From Actinomycetaceae bacterium zg-1166 (GTDB lineage Bacteria; Actinomycetota; Actinomycetes; Actinomycetales; Actinomycetaceae), in the NCBI GenBank assembly GCA_015679245.1, contig CP064953.1:558001-622000 (forward strand): DNA of 64,000 nucleotides, written 5' to 3'. The position numbers and the translations under genes were made by a program. The notes beneath the pieces are model-generated. The model saw only the letters and a list, made by a program, of their open reading frames with translations. It did not search any database and was not told the DNA's origin. Below are positions 9,727 through 34,652 of the stretch, piece after piece. Each line of letters begins with the position of its first letter. The stretch's first letter is position 1.

Positions 9727-11249
9727 AACTTGGACGTGCACGAACTGCCTCCGTCGTGGGGATTATCGGAAAGCCGGTACTTGTCGAAGTTGCACTCCTC
9801 AAAGGGCTGCCGGCCTTCACTATCGTCGGCCTGCCAGATACTGCCGTATGCGAATCACGTGAACGTATTCGTGCTGCCTTTGCTGCGGCAGGTATTGCCT
9901 TCCCTAATGCCAGGGTGACGGTGAACCTCTCGCCAGCGAGTACGCCGAAGGTAGGTACAGCCTTTGATCTCGCTATTGCTGTGGCGATTCTCGCAGCTCT
10001 CGCTGGTAGAGAAGCAGATCTAGGGCTGCTGTATCTGGGCGAACTCGGCCTTGACGGTTCGGTGCGTCCCGTGCGTGGAATCCTCCCCGCAGCCCTTGCA
10101 GCTATTGAGGATATGCGCACAGGGATCGTCGTACCACCAGGTCAAGGACAGGAGGCGGCAATGGCTGGGATCGAGGCCAGTGAAGTGAGGCATGTGGGAG
10201 AAATTGCCGAGAATCTGGGGGTTTCCTGTGCTCCGGTGCCTTCGGTGTGTGAGGTTGAGGAGAGTAATCCAGTGGGCATATCTCAAGGTGGAGATGAGAT
10301 CGGAGATATGGCTGATGTGCGTGGACAATCCGAGGCTAAACTCGCCCTTGAGGTAGCCTGTGCGGGAGGCCATCACGTCCTGATGATGGGTCCTCCGGGC
10401 GTGGGGAAATCTCTGCTTGCATCGCGTTTACCTGGGATTATGCCACCACTTGAGCGGAGTGAAGGGATCGAGGTGGCCTCGATACTCTCCTGCTTAGGCG
10501 AGTTTGATGGCAAACTTCCTACCCGCGCACCCTTCGCAAGTCCACACCACTCCACGTCCTCTTCTGCACTTGTAGGTGGAGGAAGTATTCCGCGCCCCGG
10601 CGCTATTTCTCGTGCGCACTGCGGCGTGTTATTCCTCGACGAACTCCCAGAGTTTCCCTCATCGTCGCTTCAAGCACTACGCCAACCAATGGAATCGGGA
10701 ATTGTGGAGATCTTTCGTGCGAGAGCATCTCTCACGTTTCCTGCGCGTTTTCAACTTATTGCAGCGGCAAATCCCTGCAAGTGCGGGAGGGCTTTTGATG
10801 GGGCTGGTGCTTGTAGTTGTAGTCCACGTGAACGGCGGGATTACTTCCGGCGTATCGGAGGTCCCCTCCTTGATCGTTTTGATCTCAACCTGTGCCTTGG
10901 ACGCCTTAGTGCCGCCCAGCTCAAACTCTCCGCCCCAGGGGAGACGAGTGCTCAGATTGCTGAGCGCATCCGTGAGGCTCGCGAACGTTCACGCCAGCGC
11001 TATAACGGCCAGCCGTGGAGCCTAAATGCGCAGGCTCCAAGCCGATGGTTGCGTCATAACACCGTCTTACCAGCAGAGGTAGGAGCGCGGTTTGATCGCT
11101 TACTTTCCTTGGGAAGGATATCGATGCGTGGCTTTGACAAAATTCTCCGCTTGGCGTGGACTCATGCTGATCTTGCAGGCCGCGCTCACCCAGCCTCCGA
11201 GGATTTTCAGTGCGCATTTACATATCGAGAGGAGAGTTTCCATGTCTGA
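9723..11249 (+). CDS. comM: ComM/YifB family Mg-chelatase-like AAA+ ATPase
   Basis: 508 residues. The N-terminal ChlI-type domain contains GLPDTAVCESRERIRAA and VTVNLSPAS. The AAA+ core has Walker A MGPPGVGKSLLASRLPGI, Walker B CGVLFLDELPEF and a Cys-rich zinc segment (ANPCKCGR...CSCSPRER). The C-terminal helical domain ends the protein. In naturally competent bacteria ComM is a branch-migration helicase for integrating foreign DNA; I infer the same here from family and the dprA neighbour. It overlaps yraN by 4 bases and dprA by 8. Confidence 0.94.
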   Translation: MKLGRARTASVVGIIGKPVLVEVALLKGLPAFTIVGLPDTAVCESRERIRAAFAAAGIAFPNARVTVNLSPASTPKVGTAFDLAIAVAILAALAGREADLGLLYLGELGLDGSVRPVRGILPAALAAIEDMRTGIVVPPGQGQEAAMAGIEASEVRHVGEIAENLGVSCAPVPSVCEVEESNPVGISQGGDEIGDMADVRGQSEAKLALEVACAGGHHVLMMGPPGVGKSLLASRLPGIMPPLERSEGIEVASILSCLGEFDGKLPTRAPFASPHHSTSSSALVGGGSIPRPGAISRAHCGVLFLDELPEFPSSSLQALRQPMESGIVEIFRARASLTFPARFQLIAAANPCKCGRAFDGAGACSCSPRERRDYFRRIGGPLLDRFDLNLCLGRLSAAQLKLSAPGETSAQIAERIREARERSRQRYNGQPWSLNAQAPSRWLRHNTVLPAEVGARFDRLLSLGRISMRGFDKILRLAWTHADLAGRAHPASEDFQCAFTYREESFHV

Positions 11250-22021: not shown

Positions 22022-23035
22022 TCAGAGTGAGTTTGGTGTGTCTTTTTGTTGTGTTTTCGCACTAGTGAGATTGGCGTGGAAAAACGCGATGAGTTTCTCA
22101 AAAGGAATGGCGTGCACATTGTCATAGAGATCCACATGAGTAGCATCGGGAATGATGAGAAGTTCCTTATTCTCCCCAGTGAGGTGAGCAAAAGCAGTTT
22201 CGCCGAAATAACGTGAGTGCGCTTTTTCGCCGTGAATCATGAGCACTGGGGTATCGATCTCGTCGATAAATTGAAGAAATTTCGCGTTGAGGAAGGAGAG
22301 AGTGGAGGTGATGTTCCATCCGTCATTGGAGTTGAGCGAACGTGGATGGTAGCCGCGCTCTGTTTTGTAGTAGTCGAAATAGTCACGTACGAATTGCGGC
22401 GCGTCGGCAGGTAGAGGATCGACGACACCGCCTGCTCGTGCTGGGCGACCTGTGCGAGCATCTTCAAGGCGTTGTGTGGCGAGCTGGACGCGTAGTTCTC
22501 GTCGATCTTCGCGGCTCATGGAGTCGTTATAGCCCAGGGCGCTTACCCGAGTCATGTCGTACATCGTAGAGACGACGGTGGCTTTGATGCGTGGGTCTAC
22601 AGCTGCAGCGTTGAGCGCAATTCCTCCCCAACCGCAAATACCGAGAATGCCGATGGCCTCAGGATGCACATGTGGATGCAGAGCAAGGAAATCGACTGCG
22701 GCTGAGAAGTCTTCTGTATTGATATCGGGGGAGGCGACGTAACGGGGGTGTCCTGAGCTTTCTCCCGTAAATGAGGGATCAAAAGCCAGTGTAAGGAAGC
22801 CATGCGCGGCGAGAGTCTGTGCATAGAGGCCTGAACACTGTTCTTTTACAGCCCCGAAGGGGCCACCTACTGCAATTGCAGGGAGGCGGCTACCTTCTTC
22901 TCTTGCTTGTGGTTGGTAGAGATCGGCGGCTAGGAAGGTGCCAAAGCGCGTGGGGAATTCCACCTTCGTGTGTACGACACGAGCATCAGGTTCGAAGGTT
23001 TTATCCCAGCGCGGATCGAGTTCGAGGTGAGTCAT
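22022..23035 (-). CDS. Alpha/beta hydrolase with cysteine nucleophile (YcjY/dienelactone-hydrolase-like)
   Basis: 337 residues. The nucleophile elbow is GICGWGG, so cysteine replaces the usual serine. The acid is probably D in PVLMIHGEKAH and neighbours, and the histidine is in IPDATHVDLYD. The lid region (NSNDGWNITS, YHPRSL) matches a subgroup often found with MerR regulators, cupins and flavodoxins. The gene is preceded by a MerR-type promoter (23096-23126) on the same strand, 60 bases upstream of its ATG. A stress- or aldehyde-related role is inference only. Confidence 0.88.
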   Translation of the reverse strand: MTHLELDPRWDKTFEPDARVVHTKVEFPTRFGTFLAADLYQPQAREEGSRLPAIAVGGPFGAVKEQCSGLYAQTLAAHGFLTLAFDPSFTGESSGHPRYVASPDINTEDFSAAVDFLALHPHVHPEAIGILGICGWGGIALNAAAVDPRIKATVVSTMYDMTRVSALGYNDSMSREDRRELRVQLATQRLEDARTGRPARAGGVVDPLPADAPQFVRDYFDYYKTERGYHPRSLNSNDGWNITSTLSFLNAKFLQFIDEIDTPVLMIHGEKAHSRYFGETAFAHLTGENKELLIIPDATHVDLYDNVHAIPFEKLIAFFHANLTSAKTQQKDTPNSL

Positions 23036-23095
23036 GGCAGTCCTTTCGGTCGTGACACCGCCGTGAGAGGGGTGTCCAAGAGGAGGTATATGCCG

Positions 23096-23126
23096 AGACT
23101 AAAACCTCAACTTCACTTGAGGTCAA
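23096..23126 (-). promoter_or_regulatory. MerR-type promoter/operator, site 1
   Basis: Palindrome ACCTCAA-6-TTGAGGT at 23104-23123. Read leftward it contains -35 TTGACC (23121-23126) and -10 TAGTCT (23096-23101), separated by 19 bases. That is the long spacer that MerR-family activators correct by DNA twisting. It drives the alpha/beta hydrolase gene. The same design recurs at 32017 and 34132. Confidence 0.85.
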
Positions 23127-23253
23127 GTAGTGGGTATGGTGTAGCGTGGAGTGCGAGGAATGTGCGTACGAACTCGCCTTTCACCGTCTTCGGCTCAATT
23201 TAGTTATACGGACACGTGCCTTTTCTAGATCGAAATAGTGCCACACTGGCACT

Positions 23254-24636
23254 ATGGATACCCACTGCCCCGACCAAAATAACCCTACAAGCACGGATGC
23301 TGTTGCTTTCATCGAACGGGCAGCACATATAGGCGTACAAGCCTCGTTGCACGAATGCTTGGAGCGTATTCATTCTTCAACTCTCAACGCATTCGTTGAG
23401 GTCTTTGAGGATGAGGCATTAGAGCGCGCACGGTACTTGGATTCCTTGGATCCCTCCGAGCGTGGGCGGCTACATGGCCTTGTCGTTGCCGTCAAGGATG
23501 AGGTGCATGTGGCCGGGCATGTCACTGGATTTGGCACTGTGGCCAATTCGCGGGTGGCAGTGGAATCTTCGCATATCGTCCAAGCTCTTGAAGCTGAAGG
23601 GGCGATCATGGTAGGGCACACGCGGATGCCAGAGTTTGGCGCATGGCCTCTGACGGAATCCGCCTCTGGTGGTATTACGCGCAATGCTATGGATCCACGT
23701 TTTAGCCCGGGTGGTTCTTCTGGTGGAACCGCCACAGCAGTTGCTGGTGGCCTGGTTCCTGTTGGCATCGGTGGCGATGGAGGCGGATCCATTCGTATCC
23801 CGTCTGCGATGTGCGGATTGGTGGGATTGAAGCCTCGACGTGGGCGCGTCTCTCCCTGGCCGGAACGCCATCTGTGGTGGGCTCTTGGAGTAACGGGTGT
23901 CCTCACACGATCTGTTCGCGACACCGCGTTAATTTACGACATTATTTCAGGCAATCGGCTCACTGACCTCTATCAGGCTCCCCCGATGGGATCTTTGGTG
24001 GAGGCTCTAGAGCGAGACGTATCGGGGTTGCGATTCATGATTATCGATCACGCACTCCATCAGCGTGTTCATCCACGAATTCGCGAAGCTGTTGCGCGTG
24101 TAGGGAAAAATTTTGTCAATCTGGGCTTTGAGCGTGTCGATGGCCCTCGCTTCTTGCCGGATCCATCAGTCTCATTTATTCCACAGTTCTTCGCTGGTAT
24201 TCGCGCAGAATACGCCGCAGTTGAGCATCCCAACTTACTGGAATCCCGTACGAAAACAGTGAACCGCCTGGGCTCGTGGGTGACGGAGAATGTGAGGGGA
24301 TGGGCCGAACGTCGGGGTGAGGCTTTGGCGGCGCGTATCAATGATCTGCTGGATCAGGCCGACATCCTAGTGACACCCACCTTGGCGGCTCCGCAGCCAC
24401 GCGCAGGTGCCATTAACGGTAAATCTGCGGTGGCGACGGCACTTATCGCGCAGCCATATGTGGCTTTCACGGCGCTTTTTAACGTGACAGGCCACCCAGC
24501 GATTTCGATTCCTGCCCCCGGAGTATCGGGTCTACCCATCGGTGTGCAACTGATAGCTCGCGACGAGGAAACTCTTATCTGCGCTGCTCAGCATCTGACC
24601 TGCGCTGCTCAGCATCTGACCGAGTCGAACCAATAG
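23254..24636 (+). CDS. Amidase-signature family protein
   Basis: 460 residues with the full Ser-cisSer-Lys triad: Lys in VVAVKDEVHVAG, cis-Ser in SPGGSSGGTATAVAGG and the nucleophile in GDGGGSIRIPSA. This hydrolyses amides or esters; the substrate is unknown, and GatA is unlikely because gatC and gatB are absent. The C-terminus carries an in-frame 21-bp tandem duplication (24580-24621), giving CAAQHLT twice. It is divergent from the MerR-regulated hydrolase, and its own promoter is not evident. Confidence 0.9.
   Translation: MDTHCPDQNNPTSTDAVAFIERAAHIGVQASLHECLERIHSSTLNAFVEVFEDEALERARYLDSLDPSERGRLHGLVVAVKDEVHVAGHVTGFGTVANSRVAVESSHIVQALEAEGAIMVGHTRMPEFGAWPLTESASGGITRNAMDPRFSPGGSSGGTATAVAGGLVPVGIGGDGGGSIRIPSAMCGLVGLKPRRGRVSPWPERHLWWALGVTGVLTRSVRDTALIYDIISGNRLTDLYQAPPMGSLVEALERDVSGLRFMIIDHALHQRVHPRIREAVARVGKNFVNLGFERVDGPRFLPDPSVSFIPQFFAGIRAEYAAVEHPNLLESRTKTVNRLGSWVTENVRGWAERRGEALAARINDLLDQADILVTPTLAAPQPRAGAINGKSAVATALIAQPYVAFTALFNVTGHPAISIPAPGVSGLPIGVQLIARDEETLICAAQHLTCAAQHLTESNQ
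24580..24621 (+). repeat. 21-bp tandem duplication in the amidase 3' end
   Basis: Two exact copies beginning TGCGCTGCTCAGCATC at 24580-24600 and 24601-24621. They keep the reading frame and lengthen the protein by seven residues, four codons before its end. Confidence 0.95.
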
Positions 24637-25076
24637 AACTAGCACGGACTTTGGCCTACAAACGCGGCTTTTGCCGATGCAGTATTCACACATACGGTGG
24701 AGTTTTTTGATGTGTGTAGGAGGGCTGTCAATACGTGTCAGCCCTCTGTGCGATCAATCGGCGCGAAGAGCAGAGCGAATGGTGGCACCCGTATCTGGAA
24801 CCCATTCACCAATGTGAGAGAAGAGAGCTGTGCTTCGCCTGTGAGCGCCCAATTGGGGAAACCTTTCACTTCCCTTAAACCTTTCATTTCCCTTTATGCT
24901 GCTTATTTTCCTTTCACGGTTCTCGCAGATTGCGGTTAGGAAAAATGTGCGTGCTTTGCTTTCGATGCTCCTGAACAGTGAGGAAAACTGCATTTTATCG
25001 CGAGGAGGAAGTGAGTAGAGTGGGGAAACAGGCTCACTACCAGGGGAAATACCCTCAATTACCAGGAGAACAGACA
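24637..25076. other. Intergenic region before the surface protein
   Basis: 440 bases without a clear gene. It holds a terminator-like hairpin after the amidase gene and an imperfect tandem duplication of about 18 bases (AACCTTTCACTTCCCTTA, near 24860-24897). Confidence 0.5.
24720..24746 (+). terminator. Probable terminator after the amidase gene
   Basis: An 8-bp stem GAGGGCTG/CAGCCCTC (24720-24727 with 24739-24746) with an 11-base loop. There is no strong T-tract. Confidence 0.5.
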
Positions 25077-28000
25077 ATGAGTGTCCTTCTAGGCGCTAGG
25101 AGATCGCGAGTCGCGATAGCCCTTACTATTTTTGCCACTTTGATCCTAGGGATGATCCCTGATGCTACTTTGGGAAGGGCGTCTGCTGAGCCCTCAGAGA
25201 CTCCTGAGGAGGGTATCGTCCTCACTCACACAGCTCATCCCTCGACGAATCAGGATCCGAGAGCGTTCAAGACTGGCGAAACGATGACATCTGTTGTCGG
25301 ATTGAAAGCCAATCTATCGACGGCTGAATACGCTGGTGCATACCTATCCATCAGCGTTCCTCAAAATTCTGGCCGTTATCTTGGCTCTATTGACACTAAT
25401 ATCGATTTTTCTTCATCGGAGGTATTCTCGAATCTTCGCCGTGTCAGCGCGTCGGAATATAGAATCGCATTAAAAGATTCAGATGATGCTCGCGATGCTG
25501 AATTTGCGTTACTAACTAAGTTCGCATCGTGGGTGACTCCAGACGGTTATGAAATGCCTGTCACTGTGAGCCTTCACAAAGCGGATGGTTCTGTTGTAAA
25601 AACAACAGAATCTGTGGTGTACAAAGCTCTCGCAGGTGATGCCTCGTACTCGTATAAAGTTGTTGGGGGAGTGGATCAGTATGGTGGCCTCGCAACAGAT
25701 GCAGGAGTGTTGGATCCGAAGAACCTTACCGATGTGACCTTCCGATACGAGCCATCCTTCTACGTGTGGCACGATTATGACCGATACTCAGTGTATGCGG
25801 ACGAGATCGGGCGGCGGTTGTATCAGCCACTGGAATTAGTTCAACCTTTACCTGAGTACGCTGCTTTTGATCCGGCAAAGAATCCCGGTTGGACACTAGA
25901 TTCTTCAACTCAGAAGGTGACCTACACCTTCGAGAAGAAGGACTTTAACAACCAGAATTATCGCCCGGTAGAACTCAAACTTCGTTTCCCGAACGCGCCA
26001 GTGAATCAAGATTTCACTACGACGTCTACCATGACATTCCATCAAAAGGATCCTGGCGCGAGTGAACAGCCTGTCGTTTCCACATTGAAGGTGCACTACC
26101 GTTTCAAGAAGAGCTTGCCTGGAAGCCCTATTGTGAAGCAATTTGAGGCGGATAGCTCTGATAACACGTCACTAGGGCGTATCCACTGGCCGGTGACGAA
26201 TATATCCACCCGTCTCGATAAGGGTTTGAAATGGGACGTATTCGTAAAGAATCATCATGCCGTTCCGTTGACGATCACGGAGTTCACTGACCACGATCTT
26301 GATTCACGCCTTTACTATACGGGTATTCAACTCCCCTACGATGGAAAATATGACTTCGTTTCAGGATTGAGCCCAGACAACTACCAGACGATCCGCTCAA
26401 TGAATGTTCAAGGTGTCTTGGACGATGGGTCGCTCGTTGAACTTGGAACTGTTCGTCGCGGGGGAACACTCACATTCCCTCGTGCGGATATTGCCAAACG
26501 TGTGGTTCGCCTTAACTTTGTACTGCCGTCCGGGTATGTTCTTAACCGCGAACAGTATGCCATGGTTAAAGTCATCACCAAATTCCGTGATGCCCCAATC
26601 ATGATGGAGAAACCATCTGAGAATCAGTACAGTAACAGTGCGACGTATGCTGGTACTCATACCAGCGCTGATGGTACAAGTACCTACTCCGTTCGTGAAA
26701 CAGGCTCGGATTATTTCACCTTGGTTCCAAGGAAAATCGACGTAGGTCTTAAAAAATCGCTGAGTGATAAGCTGAGCTTCGGCTGGTTTGCATCCACACG
26801 TGAGGATCCCACTCGCGGCACAGGTGAGCGAGCAATTTGGGAGATTTCTTCAGATCTGAGCATACCGGTAATTAAGGGACTTGCGAATAATGAATTCGTC
26901 GAGAATCTTGAATTCGTTGACCTTCTCCCTGAAGGTGTCGAATACAATGAGCAAGAGACACTTGCGAATTCTCGGAGTGTTACCCGAGCTGGTGGCACCA
27001 TTACGTATATCTCAAACTATCAAGATTCAGGCCTCAATGCTGTTGTTATTGGCTTCAAGCGAATCCGTGTGAGTGCTCTTAATAATCTCTTTGATAATTC
27101 GGGAGCGCTTCTCATTTCCACAAAAGTGACATCTGATTCGCTTCCAGGAACAAATACCAATACGGTGTTGGTGAAAATTGATGGCCAGTTCATCGCTGCT
27201 GACGATCAGCATCATATGGGTGGATTTTTTAAGGAAAGCTATTCAGATACCCGAGATATCGATGGGGATGGTGATACAAAAGAAAGCTTTGCTGCATCAC
27301 ACGCTTCTTACAAGTACGTCGCAAAACAGGAAGTTATCGCACGAACCTACATTGCGCGCGAAAAAGTTGATAACTTCACAAAGGAAGGCTTACAGACGGG
27401 TCCTGGAAACGCATTCAGGTACAAGCTCTATAACTACAACAATAAGGCTTCAGCACTCAAAAAATATGAATTAGTAGATGTATTTCCACACAGTGAAGAT
27501 TACTCGTCCGCAAAGGACGCAACAACGAATACGTATCTCCCGCGAAACTCGCAATTTTCCAATACCCTCACAGGGCCGGTAACTCTTACTGTCAACGGGA
27601 GGGAAACTTCGAAATTTACTGTCCTTTACACGACAGATATAGTCACAGGTATCGTTGAAACTCCAGCTACCAGCTTAAACTGGGTTGAAAACATCGATGA
27701 CTACGCCAAGGTAACTGGTATCAAAGTCGTTCTCAAAGACGGTCAAGAATTCAAGACCGGAGAATACCTTGAAGCCTTCGCGACGATGCGTGCCCCAGAG
27801 AGCAGTGAATTAACTGCACGTGCTCATAACAATTTCGCAATCTCAACGGATGGTGGCGATTTCGTTCCAACAAATCTCGTGTATAACGAGATCTACACAC
27901 CATCAAGCACGCTGATCATCACGAAGATCACTGAAGTAGGCGGCCAGAAAGTCCCGTTGAAAGGCGCGGTTTTCACCATCACTTCCACGGTAGATCCTAA

Positions 28001-29669
28001 TGTGAAGTTCACAGTAACTACAGGTGAGGATGGAACAGTAACACAGGTACTTCCACTGGCCAAAGATGGCGGAGATATTGTGTACACGGTGAGCGAAACG
28101 CAAGCTCCTGAGGGTTATCTTGTGGCTACAAACTCTCGCGATATCACCGTGAAAGAGGATGAGACTGCCACACTTGAAGTGACAAACCAACCACGAACTG
28201 TGACAGTGACTAAGGTTGACGCTCATTCCGGGCAAGTTGTGGAAGGTGCACAGTTTGAGCTTCGCAACGACGAAGGTAGCGTAGTTGGCGGACGGCAAAC
28301 CACCGATGGTAAGGGTATTGCCCGCTTCAGCACAGTTCCTAGTGGAACGTATTCCTTGGTGGAAGTCGAAGCCCCAGATAACTACCTCAAACTTACAGGC
28401 CCCATTCCGGTGACAGTGGGTGTGGATAACGTGGAAGTGGCAGTTGAAAATACTCCGATCCCCACGCGAGTAATTCATGCGAAGAAAACTTGGGTGGGTG
28501 GCTCGCAAGTTGAGCATCCAGATATTCGCCTGCAGCTCATGCGAACACTTTCTGGCAATAGTCAGGGACAACCAGAACCAGTGCCGAGTTATGATCTACA
28601 AAAACCAGACCAGAACGGAAATGTCACTTGGGAAGGCGTGCAAACCAAGGTTGCTGATGGGAGAGATTACACATTCTCTGTTCGTGAAGTTACGGAGGAC
28701 GGTGAAACATTTGCCTCTGAGCGTTACCGAGTTGAATACGGAACTGACAATGAGGGAATCTTCACGGTGACGAATACCTTCCTTCCACCTACCGATACTG
28801 TGACGGCAAAGAAAGTATGGGTGGATGGCCCGACTGATAAGCCTACGGTGTTCGTGAGGTTGTTCCGTTCTCTTGGTGCGGCTACAGCTGAGCCTGTGCC
28901 AGGTGCTGAGGTGAAATCGCCGGGTGCAGACGGTTCAGTTTTCTGGTCAGACGTCGATCATACGGATAGTGATGGTACCCCTTATACCTTTAGCGTGAGA
29001 GAAACTAATAAAGAGGGTGCTCTTGGCGTTCCGAATGGGTATGAGGTTTCGTATTCGACGGCTGAGGATGGGACGCTGATGGTGACGAATACCTTCGTTC
29101 CGCAAACGATGTCGGTGAAGGGACAGAAGCTGTGGGTCGGTGGTTCGGACTCGGATCATGGAGATGTTGTGTTGCAGCTTCGCCGCGCTGTTGAAGGTGG
29201 TGAGCCTGAGAATATTGGCGAGCCTGTGACCACGAAGGATTTGAGTGTGCGGTGGTCTGATGTTCCGGCGACAGATCTTCAAGGGCGTGAGTACACCTAC
29301 TCTGTTGTGGAGCCTACTGTGCCAGCCTCCTATGAGGTTTCGTATTCGACGGCTGAGGATGGGACGCTGATGGTGACGAATACCTTCGTTCCTGATCCAG
29401 AGCCAGAGCCTTCGCCTGCGCCTGATCCAGAACCGACGGTGGAACCAACTCCAATTCCCGAAACCCCACAGCCTGATCCGGAGAAACCTCAGCAGGATAT
29501 GCCGACTCCGCAACCCATACCGACTTCCTCGGAGGAACCGAATAAGCCTCGTTCATCGCAGAGCAAGCTGGTATATACGGGTACAGATGCCCTCACGTTT
29601 GGCTCTGTCGTGGTGCTGCTTGTCGGCCTAGGGGTAGGACTACGGTTCTTTGCCCGTCGCAAGAAGTGA
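25077..29669 (+). CDS. Large wall-anchored surface protein with SpaA and Cna-B repeats (LPXTG-type)
   Basis: 1530 residues from the ATG behind CCAGGAG. Signal peptide at about 1-40 (VAIALTIFATLILGMIP, then RASA/EP). Residues to about 940 form a large adhesin-like region without a name I can give. Two SpaA-type domains follow at about 941-1040 and 1040-1130 (TVTKVDAHSG, VEGAQFELR). Three Cna-B-like repeats come next (KKTWVGG, KKVWVDG, QKLWVGG), then a Pro/Glu stalk (PDPEPEPSPAPDPEP). The sorting signal is LVYTG, a variant of LPXTG, with a membrane segment and RRKK end. Isopeptide-stabilised adhesion is the expected role. No sortase gene is adjacent. Its base composition is more AT-rich than its neighbours, hinting at transfer. 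Confidence 0.9.
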   Translation: MSVLLGARRSRVAIALTIFATLILGMIPDATLGRASAEPSETPEEGIVLTHTAHPSTNQDPRAFKTGETMTSVVGLKANLSTAEYAGAYLSISVPQNSGRYLGSIDTNIDFSSSEVFSNLRRVSASEYRIALKDSDDARDAEFALLTKFASWVTPDGYEMPVTVSLHKADGSVVKTTESVVYKALAGDASYSYKVVGGVDQYGGLATDAGVLDPKNLTDVTFRYEPSFYVWHDYDRYSVYADEIGRRLYQPLELVQPLPEYAAFDPAKNPGWTLDSSTQKVTYTFEKKDFNNQNYRPVELKLRFPNAPVNQDFTTTSTMTFHQKDPGASEQPVVSTLKVHYRFKKSLPGSPIVKQFEADSSDNTSLGRIHWPVTNISTRLDKGLKWDVFVKNHHAVPLTITEFTDHDLDSRLYYTGIQLPYDGKYDFVSGLSPDNYQTIRSMNVQGVLDDGSLVELGTVRRGGTLTFPRADIAKRVVRLNFVLPSGYVLNREQYAMVKVITKFRDAPIMMEKPSENQYSNSATYAGTHTSADGTSTYSVRETGSDYFTLVPRKIDVGLKKSLSDKLSFGWFASTREDPTRGTGERAIWEISSDLSIPVIKGLANNEFVENLEFVDLLPEGVEYNEQETLANSRSVTRAGGTITYISNYQDSGLNAVVIGFKRIRVSALNNLFDNSGALLISTKVTSDSLPGTNTNTVLVKIDGQFIAADDQHHMGGFFKESYSDTRDIDGDGDTKESFAASHASYKYVAKQEVIARTYIAREKVDNFTKEGLQTGPGNAFRYKLYNYNNKASALKKYELVDVFPHSEDYSSAKDATTNTYLPRNSQFSNTLTGPVTLTVNGRETSKFTVLYTTDIVTGIVETPATSLNWVENIDDYAKVTGIKVVLKDGQEFKTGEYLEAFATMRAPESSELTARAHNNFAISTDGGDFVPTNLVYNEIYTPSSTLIITKITEVGGQKVPLKGAVFTITSTVDPNVKFTVTTGEDGTVTQVLPLAKDGGDIVYTVSETQAPEGYLVATNSRDITVKEDETATLEVTNQPRTVTVTKVDAHSGQVVEGAQFELRNDEGSVVGGRQTTDGKGIARFSTVPSGTYSLVEVEAPDNYLKLTGPIPVTVGVDNVEVAVENTPIPTRVIHAKKTWVGGSQVEHPDIRLQLMRTLSGNSQGQPEPVPSYDLQKPDQNGNVTWEGVQTKVADGRDYTFSVREVTEDGETFASERYRVEYGTDNEGIFTVTNTFLPPTDTVTAKKVWVDGPTDKPTVFVRLFRSLGAATAEPVPGAEVKSPGADGSVFWSDVDHTDSDGTPYTFSVRETNKEGALGVPNGYEVSYSTAEDGTLMVTNTFVPQTMSVKGQKLWVGGSDSDHGDVVLQLRRAVEGGEPENIGEPVTTKDLSVRWSDVPATDLQGREYTYSVVEPTVPASYEVSYSTAEDGTLMVTNTFVPDPEPEPSPAPDPEPTVEPTPIPETPQPDPEKPQQDMPTPQPIPTSSEEPNKPRSSQSKLVYTGTDALTFGSVVVLLVGLGVGLRFFARRKK
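29040..29101 (+). repeat. 62-bp direct repeat, copy 1, in the surface protein gene
   Basis: Encodes YEVSYSTAEDGTLMVTNTF in a Cna-B repeat. Identical in DNA to 29331-29392, while the flanking repeat sequence differs. That points to recent gene conversion or duplication. Confidence 0.92.
29331..29392 (+). repeat. 62-bp direct repeat, copy 2, in the surface protein gene
   Basis: Exact copy of 29040-29101, ending the last Cna-B repeat just before the proline-rich stalk. Confidence 0.92.
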
Positions 29670-29699
29670 TGATAAGAGACGTACTACGCTGAGTACATG

Positions 29700-29734
29700 A
29701 TGGGGTGGGATACCACACAGGTATCCCACCCCAT
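29700..29734. terminator. Terminator after the surface protein gene
   Basis: A perfect 14-bp stem (29700-29713 with 29721-29734) with a 7-base loop lies 30 bases after the stop codon. It lacks a long T-tract. It may also serve the converging merR transcript. Confidence 0.75.
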
Positions 29735-29995
29735 TGCTATATGGGTAGACCAATGCTGAAGAATTACCTGCAATATGCTTGGTGGGTTCTCTGTCGTGAT
29801 TTTTCTTCTGATACGTTGCTAGTATCTTGAGCACGCCAGAGCTTAGAGCACGTTGACGCTTTGAATACCCAGATAAGGAAGAACGTATCTGAGGAGTCTG
29901 CGAGATACGCGACAGAGAGGATAGCCGAAGGTCTTTCCCACGAAGCGAGGCGATGTCGGCAAAAATTTGAGTGAAGAATACTGTGGTATCTCCTC

Positions 29996-30445
29996 TCAGA
30001 CAGAGTAGGCCAGGGCACGAGCTTGACGGATTGCTACAGGTAGCTCGTCGTCTGGAAGTGAGATGACTCCCTCTTCACTTCCCTGCTCCACAGCAGTCAT
30101 GTAGTACCACGTCTTGTATTCCAACATCGCCTGTACGCGCTTGAGCTCCTGCAGTTGCTGTTCAAGTGCAGCTTTGCGTTCTTCAAATAAGCGGAGTCGA
30201 CGTTCCAATGATGTGTCACCTTCTTGGCACCACGCGATAAAATGGCTGATCTGTTCGATCGATAGCCCTGACGCTTTGAGACACTCAATGACGTGAATTG
30301 TGCGCAGCTCACGTTCTCCGAATACTCGATGCCCGCTAGTGCGTTCCATATCGGGGAAGAATCCCTGCTGGTCGTAATAACGCAACGTTGAAACGGGAAG
30401 ATTGAACCGTTTTGACACATCTCCAATTTTCAACGCAGTAGCCAT
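29996..30445 (-). CDS. MerR-family transcriptional regulator
   Basis: 149 residues from ATG 30445. The N-terminal winged helix reads LKIGDVSKRFNLPVSTLRYY, then DQQGFF. A dimerisation coiled coil follows at about residues 75-115 (RLRLFEERKAALEQQLQEL). No cysteine cluster for metal binding is present, so it is not a CueR/MerR metal sensor; it resembles the AdhR/YhdQ-like subgroup. It lies downstream of the acetyltransferase and cupin genes on the same strand, in reach of the MerR-type promoter at 32017. It is probably the activator of that promoter and of the two sister sites at 23096 and 34132. Confidence 0.9.
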   Translation of the reverse strand: MATALKIGDVSKRFNLPVSTLRYYDQQGFFPDMERTSGHRVFGERELRTIHVIECLKASGLSIEQISHFIAWCQEGDTSLERRLRLFEERKAALEQQLQELKRVQAMLEYKTWYYMTAVEQGSEEGVISLPDDELPVAIRQARALAYSV

Positions 30446-30577
30446 AGTGCTCCAATCAGGACGGGTGGTATGTGGTGTGCATATGCCTGCCACTCAACGC
30501 AATATTCGCGAGGATTAATGATACGACTCAATAGTGCCGTGTCAGGGCGCCTTGCCCTTGCTTGGTGGAGAGTTTTA

Positions 30578-30985
30578 TCACGAGAGCTGAGAGTATTCAG
30601 CGTCACTGACCGGTTCAAGCCATTCATTCGAGGATTCGTCGGCAGGAAGGGTAACGGAGAGGTGGGAGAACCAGGAGTCTTGCGCCGCACCGTGCCAGTG
30701 CTTGACTCCGGGCGCAATGACGACGACATCACCGGGGAAGAGCTTACGTGCAGCTTGGCCTTCGGCTTGATACCAGCCTTTGCCAGAGATGCACAGAAGA
30801 ATTTGCCCAACAGAACTCGTGGTGTGGTGGATATGCCAGTTATTTCGGCATCCAGGTTCGAAGGTCACGTTCATGATCTGCGCACCTTCAGTAACCAGGG
30901 ATTTTAGGTAAGACTGGCCAGTGAAATATTGTGCGTAGGCATCGTTTGCTTCGCCTCGTGGGAAGACATCAGAAAATTCAGTCAT
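30578..30985 (-). CDS. Cupin-domain protein
   Basis: 135 residues from the ATG preceded by GGAGAAACCTC. One cupin barrel carries a complete metal set: NNWHIHHTTSSVGQILLCIS (HxH and Q/E position) and APGVKHWHGAA in the second motif. FPRGEANDAYAQYFTGQSYL resembles cupins found near carboxymuconolactone decarboxylase-like proteins. The reaction is unknown. It stands between the acetyltransferase and merR genes, probably one transcript. Confidence 0.88.
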   Translation of the reverse strand: MTEFSDVFPRGEANDAYAQYFTGQSYLKSLVTEGAQIMNVTFEPGCRNNWHIHHTTSSVGQILLCISGKGWYQAEGQAARKLFPGDVVVIAPGVKHWHGAAQDSWFSHLSVTLPADESSNEWLEPVSDAEYSQLS

Positions 30986-31224
30986 GAGGTTTCTCCATGT
31001 TTGTAGTGAAGTTTCGATAGTTTTAGCGTTTATATTCCCCGACATATTTGAGGCTTTCCCATGTATGTCTCTGGAGTAAATCTCTACAAATCTCTACATA
31101 TAAGGCTCCTCATTCATTCTGGTTTCTCTGTAAGGCATCGCAAATCTTGGTGGCATGTGTGTGCATGTCGATATGTGTGGCGGCTTCAAAATGCCATGCG
31201 TGGCGGATTCAGCAGCGTAGGGAG

Positions 31225-31800
31225 CTACGTTGCTGGTGAAAGGTTTTTGAGTGTGCGTGCCGGGACTCCGCCGACGATCGTGTCAGGGAGGACATCGCGT
31301 GTGACAACAGCACCTGCGGCGACGATGGAACGCGCACCGATGGTTACTCCTGGCAGGATGGTTGCATTTGCACCGACCCATACGTCGTCGCCAATAGTGA
31401 TGGGACGGGGGAGCGTAGTACCTCGTGTGGACGCATTGAGGTCGTGATTTAGTGTAGCTAAGACAACATTGTGCCCAATGAGGACGTTATTACCTAGGTA
31501 GATTCCACCTTGATCTTGGAATCGACAGCCGCTGTTGATGAAAACGTTGTCACCGATATGAATATTTTTCCCGCAGTCGGTGGTGAACGGCGGGAAAATC
31601 CTGAATGATGCGGGAACGGTGCGCCCTGTCAGAGACGACATAATCTCACGACGTTCCTCGGGTGTCGTGTAGCGAGTGTTGAGCTCCATACATAAACGGA
31701 TCGCTTCTTCTGCGAGTTCGTTCATCGTGGCGGCAATTGGTGTTCCAGGAATTGACGAGATTCCCTGGTTCATATGCTCGATGAATTCGTCTGTGTTCAT
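31225..31800 (-). CDS. Hexapeptide-repeat sugar O-acetyltransferase (Maa/LacA-like)
   Basis: 191 residues. The N-terminal mac-type helix region (NELAEEAIRLCMELNTRYT) is followed by the left-handed beta-helix with hexapeptide repeats (CGKNIHIGDNVFINSGCRF, GNNVLIGHNVVLATLNHD, GDDVWVGANATILPGVTIG) and the family end AAGAVVTRDVLPDTIVGGVP. The catalytic histidine is in GHNVVLATLNHD. It acetylates a sugar or similar acceptor using acetyl-CoA. A MerR-type promoter lies 217 bases upstream, with a short possible leader ORF between. Confidence 0.9.
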   Translation of the reverse strand: MNTDEFIEHMNQGISSIPGTPIAATMNELAEEAIRLCMELNTRYTTPEERREIMSSLTGRTVPASFRIFPPFTTDCGKNIHIGDNVFINSGCRFQDQGGIYLGNNVLIGHNVVLATLNHDLNASTRGTTLPRPITIGDDVWVGANATILPGVTIGARSIVAAGAVVTRDVLPDTIVGGVPARTLKNLSPAT

Positions 31801-31857
31801 GTGTTTTCCTGTGTGAGTTGTGGGGAGGGATCATGGTAGGGGTAGAGGCTGTGCATA

Positions 31858-31962
31858 TCACGCACGTGTGCCTGCGGGCAAGTGGCGGCAGCATTGGCGA
31901 GGGCACGGTTTACGGTCACTGCGCTCAATGACGGATGAAAAACTAGTACTTCGTGTTCTCAC
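31858..31962 (-). CDS. Possible 34-codon leader ORF
   Basis: A GTG with a strong site AGGAGGG seven bases upstream opens a 34-codon frame ending TGA. It lies between MerR promoter site 2 and the acetyltransferase gene. The peptide is Arg/Ser/Cys-rich and matches nothing I recognise. Only the ribosome binding site supports it. Confidence 0.3.
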   Translation of the reverse strand: MRTRSTSFSSVIERSDRKPCPRQCCRHLPAGTRA

Positions 31963-32016
31963 GAGGTGCCCTCCTGCATTGTATTGTGGTGTTCTTGAGA
32001 ACACTGCTGTACACCC

Positions 32017-32047
32017 ACAGTAGAACCTCAACCTAGCTTGAGGTCAA
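32017..32047 (-). promoter_or_regulatory. MerR-type promoter/operator, site 2
   Basis: Palindrome ACCTCAA-6-TTGAGGT at 32025-32044. Leftward -35 TTGACC (32042-32047) and -10 TACTGT (32017-32022) are 19 bases apart. It faces the acetyltransferase-cupin-merR run, so the regulator probably controls its own synthesis. Confidence 0.85.
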
Positions 32048-32257
32048 GCGTTGGATTGTTGCAGTAGAATAGGGGCGGACGTGGCGGGCCGCAGTGTAAA
32101 TATCACTCAAATGCGTGTGCAGAGGGATATTGTGATTCTTTTTCACATATTGAAATTCGTAGAGCCAAGTATCTAAATTTCTAAAATAACAAGGAAGAAA
32201 TCATGTGAAGGAAATGAGTTGATATACAAGATAGAAAAAAGTTGATACCGTGACTCT

Positions 32258-33001
32258 ATGAATGTTACTGAGGCTCTCCGGCATCTAGCTAATCCTGAGC
32301 GTGCCCGCTTTAATGCGCGTTTGCTACCTATGGTTGATGAGAGTGCGGTGCTCGGGGTGAGCATGGGCGATATGCGCACAGTGGCCAAGAATGTGGAGAA
32401 TGGCCGCCTGGATGAGAGTTTGCCGGATTTTCTGGCTGGCCTACCGCACGCTAGTGTCGAGGAAAATATCGTCCATGTTCTCGCGGTCAATGGCATTACT
32501 CCGGCCAGTGGTTGGCGAAAAGCCATGGAACTATTCTTGCCATATGCCGATAACTGGATGGTTACCGATGCGATAGACCCGAGGATTTTGCGCTCACGGC
32601 GTTCAACACCAGCGGAAGTTGAGGCGGTGCTCTCTGCGGGTATGGATTGGTTGCGCCAGGAACACACATACACGGTGCGTGCAGGGATTTTGGTGTTGCT
32701 TAATGCTGTGAATCGTGGGCATTGCGCTCAGCCTCACGTGGATGTGGTCAGCCAGGTACGCCATGAGGATTACTACGTGCATATGGCTGCCGGTTGGTAC
32801 CTGGCAACGGTCTTCGAAAAAGCTCCCGCAGCTGTTCGTCCTCGCCTTGAGACCGGGGCGGGTATGGATCCTCGGGTATGGCATCTAACGATGCGCAAAA
32901 TTGTGGAAAGCCGCAAGACCAACCTGGCCGACCGTGACTGGGCAAAAGCCCGTCGTCGCCAAGCTGTAACTGCTGCTCGTGCCTCACGAGAATTCGAATA
33001 A
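32258..33001 (+). CDS. AlkD-like DNA alkylation repair protein
   Basis: 247 residues made almost wholly of HEAT-like helical repeats. Family features are GVSMGDMRTVAK near the start, DNWMVTDAIDPRIL and YYVHMAAGWYLATVF, whose aromatic and acidic residues line the DNA-cradling face in AlkD. Such glycosylases remove 3- and 7-alkylpurines without flipping the base. It is transcribed divergently from MerR site 2, 210 bases away. Some related AlkD-fold proteins lack glycosylase activity, so activity is inferred. Confidence 0.85.
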   Translation: MNVTEALRHLANPERARFNARLLPMVDESAVLGVSMGDMRTVAKNVENGRLDESLPDFLAGLPHASVEENIVHVLAVNGITPASGWRKAMELFLPYADNWMVTDAIDPRILRSRRSTPAEVEAVLSAGMDWLRQEHTYTVRAGILVLLNAVNRGHCAQPHVDVVSQVRHEDYYVHMAAGWYLATVFEKAPAAVRPRLETGAGMDPRVWHLTMRKIVESRKTNLADRDWAKARRRQAVTAARASREFE

Positions 33002-33167
33002 GAACCCTACTGTATCCATCGCTGTTTTATCGGAAACCTTGCATCCAAGTCCGCTAGCCGCACTTTTACTGCAGAAGCACACGTCCCCATACTCTAGATC
33101 TTTACACCTTTACCACGAATCAGGCGTTGCGAAGCTCTGGTTTAATCAGTGAGAGTGAGTTCGGGGT

Positions 33168-33902
33168 TCATTGAGTAGATGGGATTGACAGAGTTACCGA
33201 TGACGCGGAGGACAACACTGCCAGATCCTTGTCAGTGAGGCCGTTAATCGTGGCTAATCGCGTTTCCACCCACGTATTTGTGCCATACATGAGCACCAGA
33301 TTATTGCCCTGATACAGCATGATGTCGCCTGGCACCATGTCAGTCTGTTGATTCTGCGAGGTGAGTGAAAATCCCAAACTCCCCACCTTCTCAAAGCCGC
33401 CATAGTCACGGAGCATAACGGTCAGCGGGCCGTTGGCAAGAAGCTCCGCAAACTCTACGGCTGCCTTCGTATTTGCCAGGCACGCCGTCATCGCATGTCC
33501 ATCAATAGTCACAGTTATGGCATTTATCATCGAGGCCTCCGAGGAAAACGTGTGGTTGAAATCTTTAGTAGAACGCGTATGAGGAGTCTCGTTGAGGGAC
33601 GAGGCTCCAAGATTCCCATTTGAGCACAGCGTATCCTGCTCCGCTATGGCTCCAGTGCTCGACTGCTGATTCGTTGCAGGTGAGTCCGATGCCGAAGAAT
33701 CCGTCATCCTAGTTGGCAGCGGAGTATCAATCGATGAGGTTTCTCTCTGTGTTTGGTCTTCTTCCTGCGTTTGGCAGCCAGCTAGTGTCATTGCCCCTAT
33801 AAGTATCAGACCGGTGGCAATTCTTGCCGAGAGTATGCGCCCATGCGCGCGAGCCTCAGCCATACGTATTAGCGTTGCCATGCCTGTACTGTGGTGGCGC
33901 AT
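33168..33902 (-). CDS. Lipoprotein with cyclophilin-like domain
   Basis: 244 residues as called, with later in-frame ATGs possible. A signal peptide ends in a lipobox (LILIGAMTLAGCQ), then comes a Ser/Thr-rich linker of about 75 residues. The C-terminal domain matches the cyclophilin-like fold family: MLRDYGGFEKVGSLGFSL, PGDIMLYQGNNLVLMYGTN, WVETRLATINGL. This family often accompanies MerR regulators, flavodoxins and cupins; prolyl isomerase activity is not established. A MerR-type promoter lies about 230 bases upstream. The DNA just before the start looks like a broken N-terminal coding extension (see findings). Confidence 0.85.
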   Translation of the reverse strand: MRHHSTGMATLIRMAEARAHGRILSARIATGLILIGAMTLAGCQTQEEDQTQRETSSIDTPLPTRMTDSSASDSPATNQQSSTGAIAEQDTLCSNGNLGASSLNETPHTRSTKDFNHTFSSEASMINAITVTIDGHAMTACLANTKAAVEFAELLANGPLTVMLRDYGGFEKVGSLGFSLTSQNQQTDMVPGDIMLYQGNNLVLMYGTNTWVETRLATINGLTDKDLAVLSSASSVTLSIPSTQ

Positions 33903-34131
33903 CTTTTACATCTCCCGAACCATAATCTTGTGAACCATACGCGCCGACGTTCGTCAGGCGTAAGGCAGCATACTGCTATCCATACACAGATGGATTGTCA
34001 TTTTCGATGAACTGGTGCATCGGCTGAGTGAGTACGGCTGCGGGAAGTGAGGAGTTTGTGCGTTCATTTCTTTACGTCTTTACGGAAACACTGGGGTCAT
34101 TGAGGTTGTGAGAGGTTGCGTGACGACGATC

Positions 34132-34162
34132 AGCCTAGAACCTCAAGTCGAGTTGAGGTCAA
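34132..34162 (-). promoter_or_regulatory. MerR-type promoter/operator, site 3
   Basis: Palindrome ACCTCAA-6-TTGAGGT at 34140-34159. Leftward -35 TTGACC (34157-34162) and -10 TAGGCT (34132-34137) have the same 19-base spacing as sites 1 and 2. It points to the cyclophilin-like lipoprotein gene. Confidence 0.85.
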
Positions 34163-34652
34163 GATGTGTTTCAGCGTGTATCTCACGCCTCTTACGTAGA
34201 GCAAACTTGCGCCTAGTTTGTTGCCGAGATATGGGAGACCGTGATCGCCATAAACATCATGATCCTCAAACCCCTACTATCTGCAGGTGAGTACCTTTAC
34301 CCACAGCAAGAAGACCGCTACCGCGCTCAAACTCTCATTATTCGTGGGTAAGTGGAGCGGTCATCCTTGGAAGGGGAGGATCGCCCACACAAATACCGTG
34401 AGTGCTAAAGACAGGGGCATCCTCGGGGCAGGTAAGGGGAGAGGGGAGATATATGCACTGGTGTATCACACGACTACCGCAAACCCGATTAGATCGGGCA
34501 TACGATCCCTCGCTGGTCTGCGGGGTCTGGCGATGGGTCAACATTGTGCGACTTGTCGTTGTTGCATACTGATTTAACGGCAAATAGTATGTTATACGTC
34601 CCTTTACGGGGTGAGTAAAAGTTATAGGCTGAGTGACACAAAGGAGTCAGCT
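34163..34652. other. Gene-free region before the DsbA-fold lipoprotein
   Basis: 490 bases between MerR site 3 and the next + strand gene. I find no reading frame with a ribosome binding site and no recognisable domain. The only features I see are purine-rich runs around 34410-34450. Confidence 0.45.

Follow-up and report, generated by a model that had tools for sequence, protein, structure and literature searches.

The locus and its promoters

The window considered here, a stretch of 64,000 nt from the genome of Actinomycetaceae bacterium zg-1166 (contig CP064953.1, positions 558,001 to 622,000), contains three near-identical promoters, each leading into a gene or gene run of its own; one of the runs ends with the gene for a MerR-type regulator, merR, and the putative control of all three units by its product is the subject of this report. 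The palindrome ACCTCAA-N6-TTGAGGT is found at positions 23104, 32025, and 34140, with zero mismatches in a scan of the window, and at all three places the minus strand reads TTGACC, exactly 19 bp, and then TAGTCT, TACTGT, or TAGGCT, respectively; all three promoters face left. The first lies about 60 bp before the ATG of an alpha/beta hydrolase gene, the second about 215 bp before that of an acetyltransferase gene, which is followed on the same strand by a cupin gene and merR, and the third about 230 bp before that of a gene for a cyclophilin-like lipoprotein. An initial annotation, made from the letters alone, had reported these palindromes with their −35, spacer, and −10 sequences and had named the genes behind them; the former were recovered in place and without mismatch, and the latter are as described according to Pfam (Table 1). 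As stated in PMC9909328, MerR-type promoters have spacers of 19–20 bp and are activated by distortion of the DNA; in the window the palindrome stands between the −35 and −10 elements with a 19-bp spacer at three of three promoters. This arrangement is called the box in the following.

Table 1. Features of the three units in the window
Feature	Position	Strand	Remarks	Basis
Alpha/beta hydrolase	22022–23035	−	337 aa	Pfam
Promoter 1	23096–23127	−	−35 TTGACC 23121–23126; palindrome 23104–23123; −10-like TAGTCT 23096–23101	
MerR regulator	29996–30445	−	149 aa; NmlR/AdhR-like; ATG at 30445	Pfam
Possible own promoter of merR	30518–30545	−	CTGACA-16-TATCAT; weak	Consensus scan
Cupin	30578–30985	−	(R)-mandelonitrile-lyase-like, 121 bits versus a cut-off of 140; alternative ATG at 31045	Pfam
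Hexapeptide acetyltransferase	31225–31800	−	Maltose O-acetyltransferase-like, under the cut-off of that model	Pfam
Promoter 2	32017–32048	−	−35 TTGACC 32042–32047; palindrome 32025–32044; −10-like TACTGT 32017–32022	
Cyclophilin-like lipoprotein	33168–33902	−	Cyclophil_like2, 8.5e-20	Pfam
Promoter 3	34132–34163	−	−35 TTGACC 34157–34162; palindrome 34140–34159; −10-like TAGGCT 34132–34137	

Rarity of the promoter

The exact palindrome occurs three times in the whole genome (one contig of 1,924,583 bases, 99.5% complete), always within the same 11 kb, and the pattern read backward, which served as control, has no exact site anywhere in it. The initial annotation had called for such a genome-wide scan and had named wide occurrence of the palindrome as the outcome that would speak against it; the scan returned the opposite. 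By chance 0.0059 sites are expected in the genome, which corresponds to a Poisson probability of about 3e-8 if the pattern is regarded as fixed in advance and the base composition of the window is assumed. As a check against a choice of the pattern after the fact, all perfect 7-6-7 inverted repeats were counted: the window has 13, the only arm to recur is this one, and no arm occurs more than once in any of 40 Markov-simulated windows. With mismatches allowed, the palindrome alone is not special (within three mismatches, four places in the window versus a mean of 2.4 in shuffles, and 102 in the genome versus 70 in the control) and is useless without the −35, the spacer, and the −10; the sole one-mismatch site (G000:C1:509840 in genome coordinates) lies within an open reading frame (ORF), lacks TTGACC, and was rejected.

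Scored with a matrix of related promoter sites, which includes the three window promoters themselves, these reach 43.0, 41.3, and 40.6, and the next places in the window, mostly overlapping the same palindromes, score at most 10.6. Between the three promoters only 11–17 of 55 upstream and 12–15 of 48 downstream flanking positions are equal; since the flanks are unrelated, the promoters are not recent copies of one segment, and their likeness is confined to the stretch where a MerR protein and the polymerase would make contact.

The MerR protein

The closest solved relatives of the window MerR are the HiNmlR–DNA complexes, both by sequence (1.1e-32) and by fold (Z 13.7, rmsd 3.7, 127 aligned residues; the model used has a pLDDT of 94.4). 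The protein has the MerR fold without a separate sensor domain, is nearest to NmlR, and contains two cysteines, at positions 55 and 73. Cys55 is aligned with the HiNmlR cysteine and is invariant in 40 of 40 MerRs, as are Lys111, Trp113, Tyr114, and Tyr115; the conservation count comprises 39 of the 80 loci introduced below plus the window, the fold alignment 34 plus the window. The review PMC4776306 describes the cysteine of this clade, Cys54 in NmlR and Cys52 in AdhR, as absolutely conserved; when it was replaced by alanine, neither Haemophilus influenzae NmlR nor Bacillus subtilis AdhR responded to formaldehyde any longer, and according to the review S-alkylation has not been reported. Residue 112, directly before the invariant Trp-Tyr-Tyr, is Cys in 37 of the 40 MerRs and Thr in the window protein, and a sensor role of that Cys is therefore not needed here.

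Other classes of MerR proteins fit less well. SoxR carries a cysteine cluster for an iron-sulfur centre; an identity as SoxR was rejected for the window protein, which has only Cys55 and Cys73 and scores 38.1 bits versus a cut-off of 116.9. Metal-sensing MerRs (CueR, ZntR, MerR, CadR) were likewise rejected, at 39–46 bits versus cut-offs of 143–168. PMC5045206 concerns metal-type MerRs, and PMC7835342 concerns HxlR. The genome encodes four proteins over the MerR_1 cut-off; read from their neighbours, the other three look like one HspR (next to a DnaJ-like gene) and a pair of FtsR proteins (next to a gene for an FHA-domain-like protein), which leaves the window MerR as the only stress-type candidate seen.

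Comparison within the family

The set of family genomes numbers 213; relatives of the window MerR, taken at E 1e-20 or better, are encoded in 18 of them, and the promoter pattern (at most one mismatch) is present in 11. Where a MerR at least 43% identical is encoded, the pattern is found in 8 of 10 genomes, versus 3 of 203 others (Fisher 8e-11); with all MerR genomes counted, the figures are 8 of 18 versus 3 of 195. merR and the hydrolase gene are divergent, with the box between them, in the congener (G001) and in G175, G176, G012, G145, and G049; behind the hydrolase gene come acetyltransferase and cyclophilin-like genes in G049 and an acetyltransferase gene in G176. Boxes also lead into other genes: in G166, away from merR, into an ORF pair reading as a cyclophilin-like lipoprotein and an acetyltransferase, and in G170 into an ORF reading as a zinc-dependent alcohol dehydrogenase.

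For relatives of the hydrolase, and likewise for those of the Ahr/YahK-type reductase and the KefF-like protein treated below, at most 30 loci each were compared, among the matches listed. The 30 hydrolase loci so obtained, from 29 genomes, fall into 7 with boxes scoring at least 33 and 23 scoring at most 6.4; the boxed ones are from seven of the eight family genomes in which the hydrolase occurs together with a MerR at least 43% identical, the exception being G152, and of the 22 other hydrolase genomes, six have only a more distant MerR relative (32–38% identity). The genus is represented by three further genomes, of which two (G002 and G003) gave neither a merR nor a hydrolase match at the thresholds used and have no box.

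Three genomes have the pattern and lack a close MerR. In G082 and G083 it stands beside a divergent MerR-like ORF and before an ORF which reads as a carboxymuconolactone decarboxylase; these promoters (L072, L073) have different palindrome arms, TCAACC...GGTTCA. In G081 no MerR-like ORF was seen in the 3-kb locus, and the match is perhaps due to chance.

Comparison across 80 MerR loci

A ten-sequence MerR alignment was used to scan the genomes of 84,980 species, each represented once, and the 80 loci considered here are the best 80 of at least 564; near relatives are included, so that related species are not independent. Judging by the record titles, the subfamily extends over Actinobacteria, many Firmicutes, and a few Chloroflexi. 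A box facing away from merR is found within 300 bp upstream of it in 74 of the 80 loci and in none of 80 reversed sequences; its distance to where the merR match begins is 14–191 bp, with a median of 39. The matrix used for this count was built from 13 training sites, among them the positive hydrolase loci and L114, which is the congener G001; with L114 left out, 73 of 79 independent loci have the box, and a matrix made from the three window sites alone again gives 74 of 80, with 3 in the reversed control.

Homologues of the window targets recur at these loci: the hydrolase at 47 of the 80, the cyclophilin-like protein at 25, the cupin at 12, and the acetyltransferase at 9; at least one of the four is present at 57 of the 74 boxed loci and at none of the six unboxed ones. 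The genes led by a box could be extracted for 49 of the 74 boxed loci and yielded 109 proteins, which by Pfam include 29–30 hydrolases, 16 Flavodoxin_2 proteins, 14 aldo/keto reductases, 13 cyclophilin-like proteins, 8 cupins, and 7 carboxymuconolactone decarboxylases. Two boxes are present at three loci (L133, L148, and L190), and more than one box is therefore not unique to the window.

Boxes elsewhere in the genome

The full promoter pattern, with up to three mismatches, has 11 places in the genome of the window and 2 in the control. One of those outside the window, at G000:C1:475331–475362 on the plus strand (L194, 1500–1531), has a weakened −35, TTGGCC, scores 30.0, and precedes the gene for a KefF-like flavodoxin reductase (Flavodoxin_2 1.1e-39; 166 bits to the KefF model versus a cut-off of 210), which is followed by a short aldo/keto reductase remnant. 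Its orthologue in the congener (81%) stands directly behind a box (score 36.9) and beside a second MerR, 37% identical to that of the window; no such second MerR is among the four MerR_1 proteins of the window genome. Among the 30 KefF-like loci listed, L247, L248, and L251, from genomes with a more distant MerR, have a box scoring 28.1 about 0.6 kb upstream; L237 scores 19.3, and none of the remaining 24 exceeds 12.

A further place, at G000:C1:52070–52101 on the minus strand (L195, 1497–1528), reads ACCTCG-N8-CGAGGT with the correct spacing, scores 20.2, and lies about 50 bp before the gene for an Ahr/YahK-type aldehyde reductase (276 bits to the Ahr model versus a cut-off of 470). Control of AdhC/AdhA-type dehydrogenases is a trait of the NmlR/AdhR clade, and this box is a possible counterpart of it in the genome. 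It may be due to chance, because none of 29 other orthologue loci (among the matches listed) has a box like that at G000:C1:52071 and the runner-up in the genome reaches 19.2. That runner-up, G000:C1:1690505, was rejected, because an ORF that reads as MarR-like begins within it, with the ATG in place of the −10; also rejected were 318375, 812763, and 1094016 (scores up to 8.0) and 509836 (score 15.9), all within ORFs. One more match to the pattern lies at G000:C1:1764002. With the boxes at the KefF-like and aldehyde reductase genes, the regulon probably comprises the three local units and one or two distant ones.

Gene order and neighbouring features

In the order acetyltransferase, cupin, merR, the regulator gene comes last, 1.6 to 7 kb away from the boxes ascribed to it. 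A consensus scan found no terminator-like site on the minus strand between these three genes, so that read-through could raise the level of MerR when the system is on; the possible own promoter of merR leaves an alternative, and sites of its type are common by chance (7 in the scanned region versus 4.7 in shuffles). The cyclophilin-like protein has a lipobox, LTLAGC, as read by eye.

A perfect palindrome, GTGTTCTTGAGAACAC, is located at 31989–32004, immediately behind promoter 2 in what is presumed to be its leader. It may form a hairpin or serve as a second operator, and within three mismatches it has no other match in the window. The two long leaders, those of promoters 2 and 3, also contain small ORFs. 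Promoter 2 faces away from its other neighbour, a plus-strand gene (32258–33001) for a DNA alkylation repair-type protein (PF08713, 2.6e-13), and the space between the hydrolase and merR units is occupied by a plus-strand gene (24978–29669) for a surface-type protein of 1563 aa with SpaA and Cna_B domains.

Regulator and signal

The MerR encoded at 29996–30445 very probably controls all three units, judging from the comparison of sequences: orthologous merR genes and targets of the same kinds are accompanied by this box, it precedes the hydrolase gene in seven of the eight family genomes with the hydrolase and a close MerR, and no other MerR of the genome looks like a competitor. The control proposed in the initial annotation is thereby supported; of its "local regulon", the three local units stand, and what probably has to be given up is that the regulon is only local, since a fourth box precedes the KefF-like gene and a doubtful fifth one the aldehyde reductase gene. 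From the sites, their spacing and rarity, and their co-occurrence with merR and the target genes, we infer binding, activation, the direction of control, and read-through as follows. A MerR dimer would sit on the palindrome in the over-long 19-bp spacer, and the promoter would be silent as long as no signal is present; the signal would be a reactive electrophile, most probably an aldehyde or a dicarbonyl, that acts through Cys55, and the dimer would respond by distorting the DNA so that the −35 and −10 come into register. All three units would then be switched on jointly: the hydrolase gene, the run of acetyltransferase and cupin genes (with merR), and the gene for the cyclophilin-like lipoprotein. 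With merR behind one of its own targets, positive feedback by read-through may result. The explanation as a whole is considered probable, if a degree less so than the link between regulator and promoters, because it covers the signal and the mechanism as well.

Several observations weigh against this picture. The score of the window MerR with the NCBIfam model for NmlR (NF041849) is 77.2 bits versus a cut-off of 175, still the best of 11 models, and because the cut-off is not reached the protein is called NmlR/AdhR-like and not NmlR. The box is missing at six of the 80 MerR loci. One of these is L115 (Schaalia), with a MerR of 63% identity; upstream of its merR lies a weak palindrome that lacks a −35, and a good box is found elsewhere, before a dehydrogenase gene. 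Within the family, G152 has a close merR beside the hydrolase gene and no box; this merR lacks the first 33 residues, and the arrangement is taken for a deletion or an assembly fault (in L064, at about 9740–10080, the merR and hydrolase matches nearly touch or slightly overlap). No box stands directly before the cupin gene, which is assumed to be co-transcribed. Finally, promoters 2 and 3 are 215–230 bp away from their genes, and in the congener the acetyltransferase and cyclophilin-like genes, 7–8 kb from merR, have no box. Control of these two is therefore not old in all lines: boxes 2 and 3 are either a gain of the window lineage, or the box was lost there in the congener.

These last two points would also suit a hydrolase promoter that is the sole target of MerR; boxes 2 and 3 would then be relics, and other promoters would serve the acetyltransferase, cupin, and cyclophilin-like genes. 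Relics would hardly be perfect palindromes with −35 and spacing intact, and elsewhere the acetyltransferase and cyclophilin-like genes are joined to a box, in G049 and, as a pair led by a box of their own, in G166; cyclophilin-like and acetyltransferase genes also recur near merR at the 80 loci in the numbers given above, and we regard this explanation as unlikely. Even less probable is that another regulator, for example a SoxR-like one, uses the boxes and the nearby MerR is a bystander: CCTCAAG...CTTGAGG does resemble the SoxR box, but the window MerR is no SoxR by cysteines and score, the other three MerR_1 proteins read as an HspR and an FtsR pair by their neighbours, and the box accompanies orthologues of the window MerR at 74 of 80 loci. 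That the promoters are a chance occurrence or a copied repeat without function, for which their crowding into 11 kb might speak, can practically be dismissed given the 0.006 sites expected in the genome, the unrelated flanks, the retention of TTGACC and the 19-bp geometry at three of three, and the recurrence of this promoter before genes of the same types across genera and phyla.

With regard to the signal of the MerR regulon, carbonyls or other electrophiles are favoured because of the invariant cysteine at the AdhR/NmlR position, and together with the enzyme types behind the boxes this makes an electrophile, possibly an aldehyde, the somewhat more probable signal. The regulon may also be right and its signal not a thiol-reactive carbonyl, in that the Lys-x-Trp-Tyr-Tyr tail would bind a hydrophobic or aromatic ligand which the hydrolase and its partner enzymes degrade; Lys111, Trp113, Tyr114, and Tyr115 are invariant in all 40 MerRs, and several target families are hydrolases or enzymes for ring compounds (cupin, carboxymuconolactone decarboxylase). 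Cys55 is equally invariant, at a position reported in PMC4776306 as essential in AdhR and NmlR, and the box-led genes include aldo/keto and flavodoxin-type reductases; such a ligand is therefore the distinctly less likely signal.

Relation to known systems and evolution

With AdhR (YraB) of Bacillus subtilis the window MerR shares the clade, by the conserved cysteine, and several targets that appear to be transcribed separately; the carboxymuconolactone decarboxylase and alcohol dehydrogenase types recur among the box-led genes of its relatives. The AdhR targets given in the review PMC4776306 are adhA, yraC, and yraA, whereas those in the window are the hydrolase, the acetyltransferase-cupin run, and the cyclophilin-like lipoprotein. 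NmlR of Haemophilus influenzae and Neisseria is similar in structure, where it is the best match, in the absence of a separate sensor domain, and in the conserved cysteine; according to the same review it regulates adhC-estD, and nmlR is divergent from its targets, an arrangement also found in the relatives of the window MerR. In contrast, adhC and estD are not targets in the window, merR is not divergent from a target there, and the score stays under the cut-off of the NmlR model. The nearest likeness is to the compact units of merR, box, and hydrolase gene in the six family genomes named above and at many of the 80 loci, which have an orthologous or close MerR, the same promoter, and the same kinds of targets; there, usually one box lies between merR and its target, whereas the window has three boxes and its merR adjoins none of them.

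The window thus appears to hold an NmlR/AdhR-like regulon with scattered parts, each unit having its own box. It is conceivable, as a tentative and rather doubtful scenario, that an ancestral unit of merR and target has been taken apart into a small regulon acting in trans, with at most five promoters: three local ones with perfect boxes, merR having come to lie behind its own target, a box at the KefF-like gene that the surviving MerR inherited after loss of its paralogue, and a newly gained one at the aldehyde reductase gene. The kind of system is known; as far as the literature search goes, what is new is the scattered wiring and the gene set of this subfamily. A description of such a regulon was not found in the open-access literature searched by title and beginning of the abstract, which is a weak sign of novelty.

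One MerR subfamily is tied here to one operator sequence and to a recurring set of genes, for a hydrolase, a cyclophilin-like protein, a cupin, an acetyltransferase, and aldo/keto and flavodoxin-type reductases, for several of which we know of no role in stress. The window and its congener are a pair in which it can be asked how control survives the scattering of such a gene set.

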